Source: a virus
Strand: one strand, 5' to 3'
DNA length: 30,320 bases
IMG/VR virus record: IMGVR_UViG_3300042390_000357
Location: 1-30,320 of that record
Positions within the stretch are counted from its first letter, which is position 1; each line of letters begins with the position of its first letter. The position numbers and the translations under genes were made by a program. The notes beneath the pieces were generated by a model that was not told where the DNA came from, searched no databases, and worked only from the letters and a program-made list of their open reading frames with translations. Shown in pieces: positions 8,529 to 30,320 of this stretch.

Positions 8529-9068
8529 ATGGGTAATAGAGCTATTGCAATGATGGCAGCGGAGCGCGCGCAGGATAATATCGGAGTCCAGGAAACCGGT
8601 AATAATCGCGGGAAGTACATCCGTAAGTACCAGCTTATCTGCGATCCTCCAGCTCCCGAAGGTTCCCCCTGGTGCGCGGCGTTTATGGTCTACCGTTACG
8701 TTTCAGCAGCGGCGGAGCTGGGAGAAGATATCCCGGACTCCTTCCCTAGATCGGCATGGTGTCCGGACTTTGCGCGCTGGGCTAAAAAGGAAGGACTCTA
8801 CACTCCCCAGGTTTCCGCGCGGGAGGATACGTCCTTGGTACGGGAGGGAGATATCGCTCTCTTCTACTTTAAAGCTCTCGGACGTATCGCACACTGTGGA
8901 ATCGTAACCGAAGTACTCCCCCTGGGAGTATGGACGGTAGAAGGTAATACCTCCCCCGAACCGGAGGACGCGGACCTGGTAGAGCGGGATGGAGACGGAG
9001 TCTACCGGAAGTTTAGAAACTGGTCGGAGCTAGGTAAGTATGGCGGTTTCGTCCGTATAAACTTCTAG
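8529..9068 (+). CDS. Endolysin with CHAP/NlpC-like cysteine peptidase domain
   Basis: This 179-residue protein has the motif layout of a CHAP-type cysteine amidase/endopeptidase. Cys49 is in PWCAAFMVYRY, His122 in RIAHCGIVTEV, and a polar third residue in VEGNT (Glu138 or Asn140). The DTSLVREGDIALFYF stretch just before the His is the usual GD motif of the fold. Such enzymes cut peptide or amide bonds in peptidoglycan to release progeny. It has no signal peptide and no evident cell-wall-binding domain, so it would need a holin for export. A good Shine-Dalgarno (AAGGAG, 8517-8522) precedes the ATG, unlike the overlapping starts of the tail genes. It is the last gene of the rightward late operon. 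Confidence 0.85.
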   Translation: MGNRAIAMMAAERAQDNIGVQETGNNRGKYIRKYQLICDPPAPEGSPWCAAFMVYRYVSAAAELGEDIPDSFPRSAWCPDFARWAKKEGLYTPQVSAREDTSLVREGDIALFYFKALGRIAHCGIVTEVLPLGVWTVEGNTSPEPEDADLVERDGDGVYRKFRNWSELGKYGGFVRINF

Positions 9069-9760: not shown

Positions 9761-10210
9761 TTATCCTCCTAATGGTTTTAACGTTTTGACCGGAGGAAGC
9801 TTTACTCCTCCGGATGGTTTCGTACCTGGTACGTTACCGTCCTCGTCCTCGTCCGCGCTTATCGCGAGAAGCATGGAGAGAGAGTAACGTCTCCCGTATG
9901 TAACCGCTCCTCCCATACCGTGCGGATCGACGCGGTTTAAGGGAATCCATACCGCGCTAGAGCGCGTCTCCCCTTCCTTGTTATGGAGGGAGGTAGTAAT
10001 CTTTACCGCGGTAATCCGTCCGTCCTCCGTAAGCTTAAGGTCCTCCGCATCCTGGGTAATGTAAAGTCCATGCTTACTAAGTAGAGGACGTACCGTATCC
10101 AGGATAGCGTCCAAAGTAATGTATACACTATTGAAATGTGGATTCCTCCCGTCCTTACGGATACCTTTTAGCTCCGCGTTAAACGCTAATAAGCTCTCGT
10201 CCAGCTTCAT
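9761..10210 (-). CDS. erf: ERF-family single-strand annealing recombinase
   Basis: This 149-residue protein matches the ERF superfamily of phage annealing proteins. It has the N-terminal helix with NPHFNSVYITLDAILDTVRP (about 23-42), a central sheet with AVKITTSLHN, and the hallmark segment GGAVTYGRRYSLSMLLAIS (about 100-118), followed by an acidic ADEDEDGN. ERF proteins anneal complementary single strands during recombination-dependent replication, genome circularisation or concatemer formation. The start codon overlaps the upstream stop (ATGA, 10207-10210), so it is coupled to the 79-residue gene. The C-terminal tail (about 128-149) is Pro/Gly/Lys-rich and short, so the protein is near the lower size limit of the family. 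Confidence 0.88.
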   Translation of the reverse strand: MKLDESLLAFNAELKGIRKDGRNPHFNSVYITLDAILDTVRPLLSKHGLYITQDAEDLKLTEDGRITAVKITTSLHNKEGETRSSAVWIPLNRVDPHGMGGAVTYGRRYSLSMLLAISADEDEDGNVPGTKPSGGVKLPPVKTLKPLGG

Positions 10211-10725: not shown

Positions 10726-10997
10726 TGAAACGCTGTATCGATTGTGGATCGGAAGTGTACGGAAGCGATCCTGTATGTACTGGATGTAGAACCTCCGAAT
10801 GGTTGGATATGCATAAACCCAGGAGAGCTAAGAAAGAGCGCGTTATTAAAACCGTAGGGACGATATCTAAGTTAAGGGATGCTCTGGTTATCCTAATCCT
10901 GGTATCTCTAGCTGTAGCGTTTCTCGCTAACCTTCCGGCAGCTTTCGAGTATGACGGTAAGAAAATGGAGATACTCCGCGCTAATGGAGTCCAATAA
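10725..10997 (+). CDS. Zinc-ribbon protein with one transmembrane segment
   Basis: This 90-residue protein begins with a CxxC...CxxC zinc ribbon (Cys4, Cys7, Cys18, Cys21). A basic stretch follows (KPRRAKKERVIK, about 31-42), then one hydrophobic membrane segment (about 53-72). With positive residues before the segment, the ribbon should lie in the cytoplasm. I do not recognise a family. Its location between the repressor and sigma factor genes suggests a regulatory role, perhaps holding a partner at the membrane, but this is inference. The gene overlaps the repressor gene by one base (TAATG) and its 3' end overlaps the start of the sigma factor gene by 14 bases, so all three are probably translated together. 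Confidence 0.7.
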   Translation: MKRCIDCGSEVYGSDPVCTGCRTSEWLDMHKPRRAKKERVIKTVGTISKLRDALVILILVSLAVAFLANLPAAFEYDGKKMEILRANGVQ

Positions 10998-11811
10998 GAT
11001 TCGGCGGTTAATCTCCCGTATTAGGCGGGAGAAGTACCGCGGATTAAGCGCGGAGGAAGAAATCCTATTAAGTACCAGCTATCACGCTGGTATTTTTACT
11101 AACGCTATCGCGGATACATTTGTAGAGTGTAATCGCGGACTCGTTACCTGGATAGCTAATAAGTATGTAGGACGCGGAGTAGACTTCGACGATTTACACG
11201 CTTGTGGATACGCGGGAGTACTCCACGCTCTAGGTAAATTCGAACCTGCTAGGAAGTTTAAATTCTCTACGTACGCGGTTCCCTGGGTCCACCAGCATAT
11301 GAGACGCGCGGTGGAGAATACGTCCTACATAGTCCGTTTACCGTCTCACGTCCACGATTCGATGTTCCAGGTCCGCCGCGCGCAGGATAAGTACTACTCC
11401 GAAAATGGAGCTATGCCAACCGTAGAGGAGCTAGCTGTACTAACCGGATTAACCGTCCTTAAGATTAATAAAACGATAGACGCTATGGTTTCCCAACCGG
11501 CTAGCCTATCGACGATAATCAATAACGCGGAGATGCAGCTAGGGGACACTCTAAAGGTAGAGGACGAGAACATCCGGGAGGTAATCCGATCCGGACTCTC
11601 TCTGGAGATACAGCGAGTACTAACCCTGGTTAATGATTCGGAGAGAGAGGTATTAATCGCTTGTTTAGGACTGGATGGTAGCGAACCACTTAACCGGCAT
11701 CAATATGCCAGGATACGCGGAGTATCGCACCAGAGGATTTCCCAGATATGGGGGACCGCTATAGCTAAGATTCGAGAGTCCGGAGTGGACATCGAGGACC
11801 TAGCTCCGTAG
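10984..11811 (+). CDS. Phage-encoded sigma-70 family RNA polymerase sigma factor
   Basis: From the ATG at 10984 the protein has 275 residues and the domain order of group 3 sigma factors. Region 2 (about 45-113) has NRGLVTWIANKYVGRG, then FDDLHACGYAGVLHALGKFEP and FKFSTYAVPWVHQHMRRAV, the -10 recognition and core-binding helices. Region 3 is at about 118-190 (RLPSHVHD, PTVEELAVLTGL), and region 4 at about 205-265 (a helix-turn-helix with YARIRGVSHQRISQIWGTAIAKIRE), which reads the -35. It should direct host core polymerase to phage promoters. An alternative in-frame ATG at 10951 would add 11 residues and overlap the upstream gene much further. Region 4.1 shows GLDGSEPLNRHQYARI, where housekeeping factors have a similar loop. 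No anti-sigma gene is recognisable. Confidence 0.88.
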   Translation: MESNKIRRLISRIRREKYRGLSAEEEILLSTSYHAGIFTNAIADTFVECNRGLVTWIANKYVGRGVDFDDLHACGYAGVLHALGKFEPARKFKFSTYAVPWVHQHMRRAVENTSYIVRLPSHVHDSMFQVRRAQDKYYSENGAMPTVEELAVLTGLTVLKINKTIDAMVSQPASLSTIINNAEMQLGDTLKVEDENIREVIRSGLSLEIQRVLTLVNDSEREVLIACLGLDGSEPLNRHQYARIRGVSHQRISQIWGTAIAKIRESGVDIEDLAP

Positions 11812-26122: not shown

Positions 26123-26499
26123 TGGATGCAGCTCTCGTAAACATCCTGGGAGCTGGTATGGAGCGTATGCTCTGTACGTCCCTGGTAGACGTATTCCGCT
26201 ACGTTACTACAGCGGATGGAGCTGGGGGGACTAACCTCTCCTGGGCTAAGATAGCGTCGATTAAAGGACGGATGATTAATACCGGAGACTCCGAGAATAT
26301 CCGATCTAACGGTTTTACTATGTCCGGAGCGTGGACTCTCGTAGCGTCCAGAAACGCGGATGTAATGTCCCAGGATCGAATCCGCATCCAGGGAGACACT
26401 TCTAGATACTGGGATGTTATCGGTACGGACTTCGGTAAAACCGCGCTCCTCGTCCAGCATATATCCCTGGTCGAATCGGTAGAAGGAAACGATTTCTAA
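26122..26499 (+). CDS. Head closure protein (putative, gp16/FII-like)
   Basis: This 125-residue protein is beta-rich after a short N-terminal helix. The pattern LVDVFRYVTTADGAGGTNLSW (split: LVDVFRYVT at about 21-29), IASIKGRM (about 47-54), then RIRIQGDTSRYWDVIGTDFG and LLVQHISLVE is that of the small barrel proteins that close the head after packaging and join the tail (SPP1 gp16 / HK97 gp7 type). Position after a gp6-like connector supports this. Start and stop both overlap neighbouring genes by TAATG. Confidence 0.62.
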   Translation: MDAALVNILGAGMERMLCTSLVDVFRYVTTADGAGGTNLSWAKIASIKGRMINTGDSENIRSNGFTMSGAWTLVASRNADVMSQDRIRIQGDTSRYWDVIGTDFGKTALLVQHISLVESVEGNDF

Positions 26500-26825
26500 T
26501 GGAGACTCCACAAGCGAGCATTAACTACCAGCAGCTTATAGCTGGTTTTATTGGAGCTGTAATTATGGTTCTACGTCAGCGTCCGTTTAGAGGGTTAATT
26601 ACTAACGCGTCCTCTGTACTCGCTGGTACAGCTAGCGCGACCTACCTAACGCCTATCCTGGGTAAAGCTCTGGGGCAAACCGATCCTAACTACCTCCTGG
26701 GTTTCTCCTTTCTCCTCGGAGTCCTGGGTCTACGTGGAGTGGAGCTTGTCGCGGACTGGATCGGCGTAGACGGTAAACCTGGATTAGATAGACCGGTTAA
26801 GCTAGATATACAAGGAGAAGAGTAA
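26499..26825 (+). CDS. Holin-like membrane protein
   Basis: This 108-residue protein has hydrophobic segments at about 13-26 (IAGFIGAVIMVLRQ), 36-52 (NASSVLAGTASATYLTP) and 65-86 (YLLGFSFLLGVLGLRGVELVADW), with a charged C-terminus. Small size, multiple membrane segments and charged tail suit a class I or II holin, which would let the signal-less endolysin reach the wall. The FLLGVLGLRGVELV helix is like that of several proposed phage holins. It lies among head-tail connector genes, 12 kb from the endolysin by the circular map. No antiholin or spanin is evident. The stop lies next to the following start. Confidence 0.55.
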   Translation: METPQASINYQQLIAGFIGAVIMVLRQRPFRGLITNASSVLAGTASATYLTPILGKALGQTDPNYLLGFSFLLGVLGLRGVELVADWIGVDGKPGLDRPVKLDIQGEE

Positions 26826-27008
26826 ATGTCCTGGTTTAGTAAGTTTCTAAAGATTAAAGCTAATATCCCAGAAGTAAAGATTCCTTTCGGGGAAGCTTTA
26901 CTCTTAGGTCAAATCGCGGAGAATCTCCACTTCCTCTCTACATCCGATCTAGAGAAGCTCCGGGACCTTACCCTGGTAGCTATCGCAAACCGGAAGGTCG
27001 GGAAATGA
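26826..27008 (+). CDS. Small unknown protein
   Basis: This 60-residue protein is helical, with an amphipathic N-terminus (SWFSKFLKIKANI) and a longer helix (FGEALLLGQIAENLHFLSTSDLEKL, here about 21-45) followed by a basic end. A clear Shine-Dalgarno (AAGGAGAAGAG) lies before the ATG, and the stop overlaps the next start (ATGA, 27005-27008). I do not recognise it. Placement after the holin-like gene could mean a lysis accessory, but nothing specific supports that. Confidence 0.6.
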   Translation: MSWFSKFLKIKANIPEVKIPFGEALLLGQIAENLHFLSTSDLEKLRDLTLVAIANRKVGK

Positions 27009-27232
27009 ACGTACAAAACTATTCATGTACACCGAATCCAGATGTCCCCGGAGACTGGATTATAAAGGGTGATATCTACGACGAAAACAATATCCTACTG
27101 GGTACTTTCGGACCTGATGGGACCAGCGTATTTACCTGGTGGAATCAACAAACAGTAGATTTTCAGTTAGCGTACGTAAATCAATTTAGTTCGATTATGG
27201 CGCGGCAAATTGCATATGGAGATGCTATCTAA
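27005..27232 (+). CDS. Small unknown protein preceding the beta-helix gene
   Basis: This 75-residue protein is beta-rich at the start (DWIIKGDIYDENNILLGTFG) and ends with a helix (QQTVDFQLAYVNQFSSIMARQIAYGDAI, here about 48-75). I do not recognise a family. It overlaps genes on both sides by a few bases. From about 27140 its codons become A+T-rich like the following fibre gene, so its 3' half may have arrived with that segment. It may be a chaperone or adaptor for the fibre-like protein, by position only. Confidence 0.6.
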   Translation: MNVQNYSCTPNPDVPGDWIIKGDIYDENNILLGTFGPDGTSVFTWWNQQTVDFQLAYVNQFSSIMARQIAYGDAI

Positions 27233-29394
27233 TGGCAACCTATTATGTTCGTCCTGATGGCAATGATGGTAATGCTGGTACTGGTTCAAGCACAGCACAA
27301 GCGTGGGCAACAATAGTTAAGGCATTAGGAGCCACTGGTATAACCGGTGGGGATACCGTCTATATTGCACCGGGGCGTTATGCTGCACAGATTGTAATTG
27401 GCGGTACTTATTCATCCGCTACAAATATAATAGGTGACCCGCTATGTACACAGTTTAGTGGTTTGACTGCTGGAAAGGTATTTATTACAAATGTCGCTTC
27501 CAGTGGAGCGTCTGTCTTTAGTGGAGTCTTAGTTAATGGGTCGGCTAAATCAAATCTAGCATTCTCTGGCATTGCATTTGAAAACACTAGTAATTCAACT
27601 CTTGCAAGATGTGTAGATTTGCTTTTAGGGCAGAACAATAGTTTTACAAAATGCACATTCCGTCAGACTGGATATGGTGCGCCTTTAATAAATATGAGCG
27701 CCCCTGCTTCATTAGCACTAAATGCGACATTCGATAGATGTGTAATGGGTGGTGGGCAGGTTAACTATTCTGGTACTCCAATGGTTGGACTTTATGGAAA
27801 CAATGTTTCCGATGCAACAACTGTAAAAAACTGTTTCTTTTACTCTGGGACATTAGGTGCTTTGTTGTACTTGGTAAGTGTGTCTGTATCCGTTTTTAAC
27901 TGCACATTTATAAATCATCCAGTTACAGCGATACAGAGTGCATCTGGGTCTTTGACATACCCAACGTACGTGAGAAACTGTTTATTTGTTGGAATAAATA
28001 GTGCAATGAACTCATCAGTTACTGGACATATTGTGCAGGAATATAATCGACTGATGAATAGTTCAATGTTTCAAGTAGCAACGTCTGTAACATCGTCTAG
28101 TAGTTATGATGCTGGCATAGAAGACGGTTATTCCTTAATCAATGGTTTAAATACAACGGCTATACACGCAACGCAATTAGGTGGTGCAAATACATCGTTT
28201 GGTACTGCTAGTGGTGCGCCGACAACAGATATCTACGGATTCCCGTGGTCGGGTACATCTCCGGATGCTGGAGCATCAACATACAAATTGTTGAGTACTA
28301 TTAACCCGACATACAACCCAACAGAGCGGAACGCGTCTACGATTACCATAGCTCCAGGTTCCACGTCCCAGAGTATAGAGGTTTACCTGGGAGCTACTGG
28401 GCTTACAGCTTCTACCGCTGGTCTATCCGCGCGCTATAACCGGACCAGGACCGCATCCGTAGACATCCCCCTGGTAGCGCGCACGATAGGACAAGCTTGG
28501 ATATCCGGAGGTTTCGCGGAAGTAGACGCGGTTAATATGCCTGGAGTCTACAGAGTAGATATCCCGGATGCAGCTCTAGCCGCTGGAGCGGACGATGTTA
28601 CCCTGGTAGTCCGCGGAGCTTCCGGGACTAATGGCGCGGTTATAACCGTCAAGCTATCCAGCGGAGGACTAACGTCCGGACAAACCGCATCCGCGGTATG
28701 GGGAGCTTCGGTCGCTGGTTATCTTGCAGAGACGGATTTCGGCGGCGTGGTTAATGCTACGCGTACCCTGGTAGGTAATATACCGGATCAAGTATGGGGC
28801 GAGTCTACAAGTAATCAGACAACGCACGGTACATTCGGATGGAATATCCTCCGCGCGGATCAACAGTCTAAAAAAGGTTTAGTTACACTGCATTCAAGCG
28901 GAGGTATAAACCGCGTAGACGCGGACGTACACGCGATCGTAAATGACACGGATGCAGCGGTAGAGCTTAAGGGAGCGTTACTCCATAACGGTACGGATTA
29001 CATCTCCGCGGATTTGCTATCTCCTACCAGTCCAGCTACCACTCTCCGTATGGGTCCGTACTCTGTAGTAGCCGATCAGACTAAGCAGGAGATTAATGTA
29101 GATATCCTAACCGGAGCTTCTCTCCCTGTAGTACTCCAGCTGGTAGACGCTAACGGTACTGGGATACCCGTTACGGGAGCGACCCTATCGGTTAAAATCT
29201 ACACTACATCCGGGACCCTGGTCGCTACGTATACGGGTACAGCTTCGTACGCGGATGCAGGTTTCGTAACCTTTACGCTAACATCGGCGGTAACCGCTAC
29301 CCCAGGTACTTACTACGTAACGGTTACTAGGTCCAGTGGAGCTACGGATACGTCCATCTATGGCGGTTTACGTCTCTATGTCAGGAGTAACTAA
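27232..29394 (+). CDS. Beta-helix fibre/appendage protein with mosaic composition
   Basis: Residues about 1-350 of this 720-residue protein form a right-handed beta-helix of the pectate-lyase type: it starts YYVRPDGNDGNAGTG, contains DTVYIAPGRY, then rungs with repeated NCxFxNxT-like steps (KNCFFYSG, FNCTFINH, VRNCLFVG). Residues about 365-480 form a conserved phage module (VYLGATGLTAST, NMPGVYRVDIPDAALAAGADDVTLVVRGA). The C-terminal part (about 615-720) resembles a BppU N-terminal/Ig-like domain, repeated in the next gene. The beta-helix part is A+T-rich with different codons (TTG, GCA, ACA) from about 27232 to 28320, then the sequence reverts sharply. This suggests recent replacement of the receptor- or glycan-recognition module. 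Depolymerase activity is possible but no active-site set is identified. Confidence 0.72.
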   Translation: MATYYVRPDGNDGNAGTGSSTAQAWATIVKALGATGITGGDTVYIAPGRYAAQIVIGGTYSSATNIIGDPLCTQFSGLTAGKVFITNVASSGASVFSGVLVNGSAKSNLAFSGIAFENTSNSTLARCVDLLLGQNNSFTKCTFRQTGYGAPLINMSAPASLALNATFDRCVMGGGQVNYSGTPMVGLYGNNVSDATTVKNCFFYSGTLGALLYLVSVSVSVFNCTFINHPVTAIQSASGSLTYPTYVRNCLFVGINSAMNSSVTGHIVQEYNRLMNSSMFQVATSVTSSSSYDAGIEDGYSLINGLNTTAIHATQLGGANTSFGTASGAPTTDIYGFPWSGTSPDAGASTYKLLSTINPTYNPTERNASTITIAPGSTSQSIEVYLGATGLTASTAGLSARYNRTRTASVDIPLVARTIGQAWISGGFAEVDAVNMPGVYRVDIPDAALAAGADDVTLVVRGASGTNGAVITVKLSSGGLTSGQTASAVWGASVAGYLAETDFGGVVNATRTLVGNIPDQVWGESTSNQTTHGTFGWNILRADQQSKKGLVTLHSSGGINRVDADVHAIVNDTDAAVELKGALLHNGTDYISADLLSPTSPATTLRMGPYSVVADQTKQEINVDILTGASLPVVLQLVDANGTGIPVTGATLSVKIYTTSGTLVATYTGTASYADAGFVTFTLTSAVTATPGTYYVTVTRSSGATDTSIYGGLRLYVRSN

Positions 29395-29753
29395 TGTCTA
29401 AAATCTACGCTCTCTCGGAGGACCCTAAGCTCTCTATGCAGGAGACGGATGTACTCTGGGTCGGAGATAGGAGCGCGCTTATAATGCGCCTGGTAGACGA
29501 GAACGGGACCTCCGTAGACGTTACTACAGGTACTCTCGCGGTTAGCTACATTAACGCGCTAACCGGATCGGCGTATACCTTCCCGTCCGGTACAGCTACA
29601 ATTACTAAACAGTATCCAGCGGAGGGAGTAATCTCTATCCTTCCTCCTGCCGCGTATCCTACCGCTGGAGTAATCCGGTTATCGGTTAGCTTTACTGTAG
29701 GGACTACTATCCGGAGATTCGGTCCGCTGTATACGGATATCCTTTCCCTGTGA
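29394..29753 (+). CDS. BppU-like Ig-fold protein, related to the fibre C-terminus
   Basis: This 119-residue beta-rich protein parallels the last 100 residues of the preceding protein. Both have a strand ending LxLVDxNGT (here LIMRLVDENGTSV), a GTLxVxY/K segment, an (Y)xxxGxVxxxL turn (YPAEGVISILPPAAYPTAGVIRLSV; here about 75-99) and a terminal strand leading to a conserved Y/L. This fits the BppU N-terminal domain found in phage baseplate and appendage proteins. It probably attaches to, or alternates with, the fibre-like protein. The start overlaps the fibre stop (TAATG), and the stop overlaps the next GTG (GTGA, 29750-29753). Confidence 0.55.
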   Translation: MSKIYALSEDPKLSMQETDVLWVGDRSALIMRLVDENGTSVDVTTGTLAVSYINALTGSAYTFPSGTATITKQYPAEGVISILPPAAYPTAGVIRLSVSFTVGTTIRRFGPLYTDILSL

Positions 29754-30178
29754 ATAAAGCTTCCGTAGAGGTAAAGAGTAATCTAATCCCAGCGTATATC
29801 CGAAACCTACATAAGATATCGGCTATCGTTGGAATGACGGTAGCGAACGTAGAAGCTACCGCTAAGAGAAGTATCGCGGAAAGCTCCGGAAAATACAAAC
29901 CATACACTAGAGGTAAAAAGAGGAAGCGTATCCACTGGTCCTCTCCCCCAGGTACTCCTCCGAATAGTGATACAGGTTTCCTTAAAAACCATATCTATTC
30001 CAGGATGGTTACAAAGTACAGCGGGATAGTATTTAGTAGCGCGAAGTACTCTATCCCCCTGGAGCTGGGATGGTATTCCAAGAAAGGGAAGCGGATACCT
30101 AAGCGTCCCTTCCTCCTACCAGCTCTCCAGAAGGAAGCTCCGGAGATGATAAACCGGATTAAAGCTTTACTGAAGTAA
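29750..30178 (+). CDS. Neck / tail completion protein (HK97 gp10-like)
   Basis: This 142-residue basic protein starts at a GTG that overlaps the upstream stop. It has an N-terminal helix, a central GTPPNSDTGFLKNHIYSRM-like stretch (about 66-84) and a C-terminal PKRPFLLPALQKEAPEM segment (about 117-133), which are the marks of HK97 gp10/minor tail-completion proteins (a conserved RPF(L)xPAL near the end). It probably acts at the head-tail joint. Its stop codon is the first three bases of the window's terminal repeat, so the circular map continues directly to the tail terminator at base 15. Confidence 0.78.
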   Translation: MNKASVEVKSNLIPAYIRNLHKISAIVGMTVANVEATAKRSIAESSGKYKPYTRGKKRKRIHWSSPPGTPPNSDTGFLKNHIYSRMVTKYSGIVFSSAKYSIPLELGWYSKKGKRIPKRPFLLPALQKEAPEMINRIKALLK

Positions 30179-30301
30179 GGAAAGAAAATATGTTATTTGA
30201 CCCTGGAGTAATCGAACCGGATATCTATACGGTACTTACCGCGGACGCTACGCTATCCGATCTACTCGCGGTAGATAATCTACCTAACGGTTACCAGCAG
30301 G
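30176..30301. repeat. Terminal direct repeat, right copy
   Basis: Identical to bases 1-126. It contains the stop of the gp10-like gene and the first 112 bases of the tail terminator gene. The identity stops at 30301. Confidence 0.93.
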
Positions 30302-30320
30302 TAGATTATCTACCGCGAGT
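30264..30320. repeat. Terminal 21-bp inverted repeat (probable fold-back artefact)
   Basis: Bases 30300-30320 are the exact reverse complement of 30264-30284, with 15 bases between. In the left copy of the same locus (89-126 onward) the sequence continues normally into the tail terminator gene and contains no second arm. The arm is therefore foreign to the genome at this place and looks like a fold-back from amplification or assembly. Confidence 0.8.

Follow-up and report, generated by a model that had tools for sequence, protein, structure and literature searches.

A frequently exchanged beta-helix module of a probable phage virion appendage and its constant A+T-rich composition

The N-terminal beta-helix of a 720-residue phage protein is exchanged often among related phages, and the A+T-rich composition that sets it apart from its genome belongs to the beta-helix segment in almost all copies examined and does not record a single recent import. 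Odd composition is routinely taken as a sign of recent transfer; here transfer is frequent, and composition is uninformative about its time and source. The whole reading, in which the gene encodes an often-exchanged beta-helix virion appendage that is put together by homologous joining and whose composition is a mark of the module, is about 80% probable in our estimate. Sequence comparison demonstrates the exchange, the joints, the tie between anchor and capsid, and the constancy of composition; glycan recognition, the place in the virion, the recombining enzyme, and the reason for the composition are inferences. The sequence analysed is that of IMG/VR record IMGVR_UViG_3300042390_000357, positions 1 to 30,320 (30,320 nucleotides, called the window below). 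Its close relatives are metagenomic contigs throughout (L003, L034, and so on), and the system is known here from sequence and predicted models alone. Terminase and capsid have distant matches only, all below 60% identity and spread over many host groups, and for that reason no host is named.

The gene product would be a virion appendage, encoded among the head-neck genes of the structural operon. Its predicted layout is an N-terminal pectate-lyase-like beta-helix (N), then a joint domain (C1), then a resident BppU-like anchor in the C-terminal part (Cr). The beta-helix has been replaced repeatedly among phages, usually together with its own 75-aa partner gene (p75), and has kept its A+T-rich composition in nearly every phage examined. 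The features are as follows.

25634: head-decoration match
26499-26825: holin-like gene, among the head-neck genes
26993..27010, + strand: 5' joint, in the ribosome-site and start region of p75, where identity to L043 and L034 ends and identity to L003 and L032 begins
27005..27232, + strand: p75, 75-residue open reading frame, partner of the beta-helix gene
27232..28311, + strand: N, exchanged beta-helix module, residues 1-360 (PF13229, AlphaFold2 model, composition)
28312..28425, + strand: 3' joint, at the start of C1 (comparison with relatives)
28312..28698, + strand: C1, conserved joint domain, residues 361-489 (conservation among relatives)
28699..29394, + strand: Cr, resident C-terminal part, residues 490-720 (tracks capsid and phage codon usage)
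29394..29753, + strand: 119-aa gene, diverged copy of the C-terminal beta-sandwich (34% identity to residues 622-705)
29750: Neck1/tail completion match
9761..10210, - strand: Erf-like single-strand annealing protein (PHROG 155, E 6e-33)

Residues 1-350 are modelled by AlphaFold2 as a right-handed beta-helix with a pLDDT of about 90, and PF13229 scores 25.9 bits against a cut-off of 25.9. Together with structural Z scores of up to 25.3, this places N among the pectate-lyase-like right-handed beta-helices. The closest folds are the PL6 alginate lyase BcAlyPL6 (7dmk, Z 25.3) and a rhamnogalacturonan lyase (5olq, Z 25.0). These PL6/PL9-type polysaccharide lyases, Pel9A (1ru4) included, share the right-handed beta-helix at Z 22.8-25.3 over 278-289 residues, but their identity to N is just 11-20%. 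A profile match to BcAlyPL6 has an E value of 1.2e-7, with other lyases and hydrolases scoring alike, and the PL6 family is not listed in the Pfam scans of the gene. Most likely, N binds or cuts a surface glycan. The initial annotation had proposed a host- or glycan-recognition module attached to a resident C-terminal anchor, and this part of its reading is supported.

The stop codon of p75 overlaps the start of the beta-helix gene (TAATG). In 102 of 103 relatives the beta-helix is immediately preceded by an open reading frame of at least 50 aa, which is exactly 75 aa long in 98 of the 102. Strands and one helix are predicted for p75 (pLDDT 90.6), and its fold drew no PDB matches with E <= 0.001. 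The joint domain C1 has a median pairwise identity of 82%, compared to 31% for N (54 genes). Its model confidence is low, with a pLDDT under 50 across much of residues 361-481, and it has no sequence matches with E <0.01 among solved structures. In the model, Cr ends in a beta-sandwich (residues 604-720), which is probably a BppU-like fold, the matched region being estimated from alignment length. Foldseek matches of the gene model are 3uh8, 6v8i, 9c39, and 9mt4, and they include TP901-1 ORF48, the baseplate of phage 80alpha, and neck proteins of phages; a BppU domain is absent from the Pfam scans of the gene. Because of the fold similarity, Cr is read as the anchor.

Relatives were taken from two scans, as the best 80 of 427 matches and the best 80 of 384 matches, and each distinct N sequence was entered once in the composition sets. 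In the set found through C1 or the two halves of the gene, 125 genes were reduced to 104 distinct ones and, upon exclusion of one with a 135-residue N, to 103; four of these lack 1,000 bases of flank, leaving 99 for composition. A scan with N enlarged the set to 162 complete genes, of which 130 are distinct and 123 have enough flank. Trees were built from 76 genes with flank and Cr, 66 of them with a G+C class and 10 intermediate ones excluded. Capsid comparisons use the 41 genes with a capsid gene in reach. The sampled copies are non-independent, and where copies stand in tandem, the flank measured for one takes in part of the other. Such tandem copies, with different beta-helices and mostly a 75-aa gene each, occur in some phages (L017 at 4888 and 7599, L036 at 2464 and 4906, L037 at 4897 and 7112, L039 at 4918 and 7392, L044 at 2577 and 4906). 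C1 is missing from 5 of the 130 distinct complete beta-helix genes (L054 6788, L055 6788, L144 1494, L160 7489, and L170 3757), and these may be free-standing modules.

The exchange of the module is seen directly when the window is compared with single relatives. A nearly identical beta-helix is present in three contigs (97, 87, and 86% aa identity), and a relative of the C-terminal half in 52. Against L003, N is 97% identical in amino acids and 96.8% in DNA, C1 is 72% identical, and Cr and the capsid are each 50% identical, so that the protein is a domain mosaic. Against L034, the capsid is 99% identical, C1 93%, and N just 31%. The same pattern holds among relatives. There are 68 pairs with capsids at least 95% identical (a set with duplicates and overlap, and thus non-independent); N is identical in 8 of them, which are apparent duplicates, and has an identity of 0.7-0.99 in none, 0.5-0.7 in 2, and under 0.5 in 58. 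Since N in these pairs is either identical or replaced, replacement of the module seems to be faster than its divergence in place. Part of the low N-N similarity between phages with like capsids might in theory be due to fast divergence at the same site, but the 97% match between phages as unlike as the window and L003 cannot come from it.

Linkage between segments gives the same picture. The Mantel correlation of Cr with the capsid is 0.73 (n 32), compared to 0.14 for N (n 41), 0.14 for p75 (n 41), and 0.14 for C1 (n 40). The correlation between p75 and N is moderate (rho 0.32, n 99), which means that the two are often separated, and that between N and C1 is 0.03 (n 99). On trees of the 66 genes, the G+C class of the host phage changes 17 times for N (shuffled mean 19.5), 17 times for p75 (18.3), 12 times for C1 (20.0), and once for Cr (19.9). 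Phage G+C class is thus scattered almost at random over the beta-helix tree, and it sorts cleanly on that of the anchor. Vertical inheritance of the module is ruled out by the Mantel linkage, the trees, the comparisons with L003 and L034, and the pairs with like capsids.

In the window, the exchanged module stands out by its composition, as the initial annotation had pointed out. The G+C content of 27140-28320 is 0.412, compared to 0.494 for the whole window, and only 0.3% of windows of that length are lower; the best single low-G+C segment is 26781-28200. Sliding-window and codon checks agree that the step is real. GC3 is 0.29 in residues 1-360, compared to 0.44-0.59 in the other genes listed and 0.39 in p75. 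The codons TTG, GCA, and ACA, said to be rare elsewhere, make up 2.2, 4.7, and 5.8% of the module and at most 1.4, 2.8, and 2.6% elsewhere. Of the oligomers said to be lacking, CGCG is indeed absent, whereas GCG and TCC still occur, at lower frequencies (0.83 and 1.02 per 100 nt, compared to roughly 2 and 2.7). The CA/TG odds are 1.30 in the module and 0.53 in the rest of the record, and the most deviant dinucleotide windows of the record start at 27121-27241. The right edge, given as about 28320, was found at 28311-28330. The left edge had been placed at 27140, in the end of the 75-residue gene; comparison with relatives moves this joint to about 27005-27010, at the start of p75. The junction with the anchor also needs revising: the C-terminal part is resident as proposed, but C1 (361-489) lies between it and the module and is itself exchanged.

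Amino-acid make-up is out as the cause of the step, as a large gap in GC3 is left once the amino acids are taken into account (0.29 observed in the module, 0.50 expected from the codon usage of the phage itself, z -8.7). Changes in the lineage of the window that could show amelioration of this copy are few: only 14 alter G+C, 8 toward G/C and 6 toward A/T; at third positions 7 go toward G/C and 2 toward A/T.

The same composition is found wherever the module is carried. In 99 genes, the G+C content of N is 0.421 (sd 0.017) and its slope on flank G+C is -0.02 +/- 0.04, whereas the slope of Cr is 0.91 +/- 0.04 on flank G+C (n 85) and 0.99 on phage codon usage. The 123 distinct modules have a GC3 of 0.318 (sd 0.039) with a slope on flank G+C of -0.09 +/- 0.09, flat over flank G+C bins from 0.42 to 0.57, and N is more A+T-rich than its flank in 119 of the 123. 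Conditioned on amino acids, GC3 of the module is 0.307 compared to 0.490 expected, with z below -2 in 83 of 99 genes. The partners that travel with the beta-helix are different. Synonymous GC3 is 0.442 in p75, where host codons predict 0.489 and module codons 0.306, and 0.474 in C1, where the predictions are 0.456 and 0.286; in the same comparison the beta-helix has 0.292 for a host expectation of 0.479. In other words, p75 and C1 look like sequences averaged over many hosts, and the beta-helix does not. This provides a natural control that separates foreign origin from selection or mutation specific to the locus, as p75 and C1 are exchanged without the step.

The cause of the constancy can be read in several ways, of which composition specific to the segment is the one we lean toward, tentatively and at somewhat under even odds. 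It says that the beta-helix has a set-point and holds GC3 near 0.3 in any genome that carries it, a set-point that p75 and C1 lack. In its selective form, codon selection would favor slow translation or folding of the beta-helix. In its mutational form, the beta-helix would sit at a mutational equilibrium; in other genes homologous recombination or codon selection would raise G+C above it, and the beta-helix modules, hypervariable and dissimilar to each other, would alone be exempt. A set-point would account for the flat GC3 across the whole range of host G+C and for N alone being low among the three exchanged segments. At the fourfold sites of N, A is close to T and G close to C, whether the host is low or high in G+C. 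This would be expected of a mutational equilibrium, but from such parity mutation cannot be told apart from other causes. The beta-helix spike genes of LKA1 (gp49, GC3 0.55 compared to 0.73 expected), P22 (0.38 and 0.47), and Geobacillus virus E2 (0.33 and 0.50) are more A+T-rich than expected, three of the four control phages, whereas those of KP32 are hardly lower (gp37 0.59 and 0.61, gp38 0.56 and 0.61). An A+T lean may therefore be common in beta-helix spike genes, judging from these few, four phages, but the values in LKA1 and KP32 mean that the fold itself does not dictate a GC3 of 0.3. If the set-point is true, the frequent A+T-richness of surface-recognition genes, an old observation, would become a measurable rule that is independent of foreign origin. 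A literature search found no report of constant composition in exchanged receptor modules; we do not claim that none exists.

A neutral pool with a low-G+C home is only slightly less probable in our estimate. Here the modules would reside mostly in low-G+C or unsampled members of the group and be lent briefly elsewhere. Residence seems to be short, judging by the pairs with like capsids, and hosts of high and low G+C are mixed on the module tree. The module also fits its surroundings in phages of about 42-46% G+C, with z of 0 to 1.6 in, for instance, L044 2577, L046, L053, L054, and L037 4897, and the fourfold G+C of N (0.27) is close to that of Cr in low-G+C phages (0.25). However, low-G+C phages (flank <0.46) account for just 26 of the 123 modules, p75 and C1 cross the same classes and yet are near the host average, and even in low-G+C hosts N is at 0.296, still below the 0.337 expected.

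One recent import from a foreign donor, whose signature has not yet been ameliorated, was the explanation offered by the initial annotation, and it is improbable as the cause of the step. What it has right is the exchange, which is recent in this phage: the copy of the phage was shared recently with an unrelated phage, L003 (the DNA and capsid identities above), and the dinucleotide contrast in its lineage, CA/TG 1.30 compared to 0.53, is extreme. Because the step recurs almost throughout the family, in 119 of 123 distinct modules, it can neither date an import nor reveal its source. Relatives sharing the step by vertical descent had been named as what would speak against an import; the step is shared, but the phylogeny is not vertical. 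The partners p75 and C1 travel too, without the step. No outside donor came to light: a genome_contigs scan with C1 gave no relatives among 48 pattern matches; one with N gave 7 weak relatives among 51, from Planctomycetota, Lysobacter, Lentisphaerae, and others, most of which match just its first 50-120 residues; and among 50,697 phage records none matches N and two match, within C1 only.

The step, then, is best read as a mark of the module, and the module is joined at fixed places. Identity of the window to L034 and L043 stops at 27009-27010 and resumes at 28330-28363; identity to L003 starts near 26993 and fades past 28300. Both joints lie in conserved patches: conservation is 94% for 15 nt at and near the p75 start (95 genes) and, as DNA, 84% for the opening 120 nt of C1 (103 genes). 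The 5' patch is a ribosome site and start codon, which is another sufficient reason for its conservation. Homologous recombination at the p75 start and the C1 start would be the simplest account of the joining, and the Erf-like annealing protein is a plausible candidate for carrying it out. Fast, localized turnover at fixed joints would also suit machinery dedicated to swapping the module, either a diversity-generating retroelement or a site-specific invertase or integrase, but this is highly improbable, as the differences are whole-module replacements, the record lacks reverse transcriptase (PF00078, positive in 3 of 14 control genomes) and the tyrosine integrase and serine resolvase families (control genomes positive), and around the gene there are no inverted repeats of at least 20 nt and no direct repeats above 82% identity.

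The closest known system is the neck passage structure (NPS) of lactococcal 936 and P335 siphophages. As characterized in the account of PMC6669499 concerning these proteins, a BppU-type beta-sandwich anchor, nearly identical among phages and proposed to form a collar at the head-tail connector, carries an exchangeable distal carbohydrate-binding module that falls into seven groups and is a beta-helix in some. The NPS gene lies among head-neck genes, and so does the gene described here (25634, 26499, 29750). However, the NPS anchor is N-terminal, whereas here the order is reversed, with the beta-helix first and the BppU-like beta-sandwich, whose matched region is a prediction, last. The phage gene also adds the C1 joint and the 75-aa partner, and no coiled coil appears in its model. 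The gene is not filed as a member of the NPS, because its anchor lies at the opposite terminus and sequence similarity to NPS proteins was not found. In canonical tailspikes (P22 gp9, LKA1 gp49, KP32 gp38), a beta-helix is likewise set on a virion anchor. The anchor of these tailspikes is N-terminal. Here an N-terminal virion-binding domain is missing, as the beta-helix starts at residue 1 and the other confident domain is C-terminal; also, GC3 of the tailspike controls differs from phage to phage instead of staying near 0.3.

Domain mosaicism of phage receptor-binding and neck proteins was the subject of Smug et al. 2023 (PMC10684548), whose examples include closely related phages that have recently exchanged a pectin-lyase-like domain while retaining the anchor, much as seen here. 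Constancy of composition is not described in the portion of that paper dealing with these exchanges, and by comparison with them the exchanged segment here is N-terminal and its co-exchanged neighbors do not have its composition. In the relevant part of Lucks et al. 2008 (PMC2266997), tail genes are less adapted to host codons, and it is suggested that frequent transfer may keep them from codon optimization. The idea fits p75 and C1 but not the beta-helix, which is far below the host average. The present comparison describes a probable appendage that is common in uncultivated phages, has its module first and its anchor last, and comes with an almost invariable 75-aa partner and fast turnover.

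The rest of the phage has its own peculiarities of composition. Outside the module (1-27000 and 28320-30320), the CA/TG odds are 0.53 and those of TA are 1.51, and GGCC does not occur in the first 27 kb, where 13.6 copies are expected. These odd dinucleotides are common to L006, L034, and L043 (CA 0.57-0.60, TA 1.45-1.50 upstream); the remaining relatives do not have them, save for L026, a milder case. DNA modification and restriction avoidance are candidate causes. Elsewhere in the window, an endolysin is encoded at 8529-9068, apart from the holin-like gene at 26499-26825, and a sigma-70 family factor at 10951-11811, with regions 2, 3, and, weakly, 4. The first 126 bases (1-126) are repeated exactly at 30176-30301, and L006 maps over the junction of the two ends of the record, which appears to be a circular genome, or one with terminal redundancy, of about 30.2 kb. 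The last 19 bases, as judged by eye, seem to be a fold-back copy of the adjacent preceding sequence, probably an assembly artifact.
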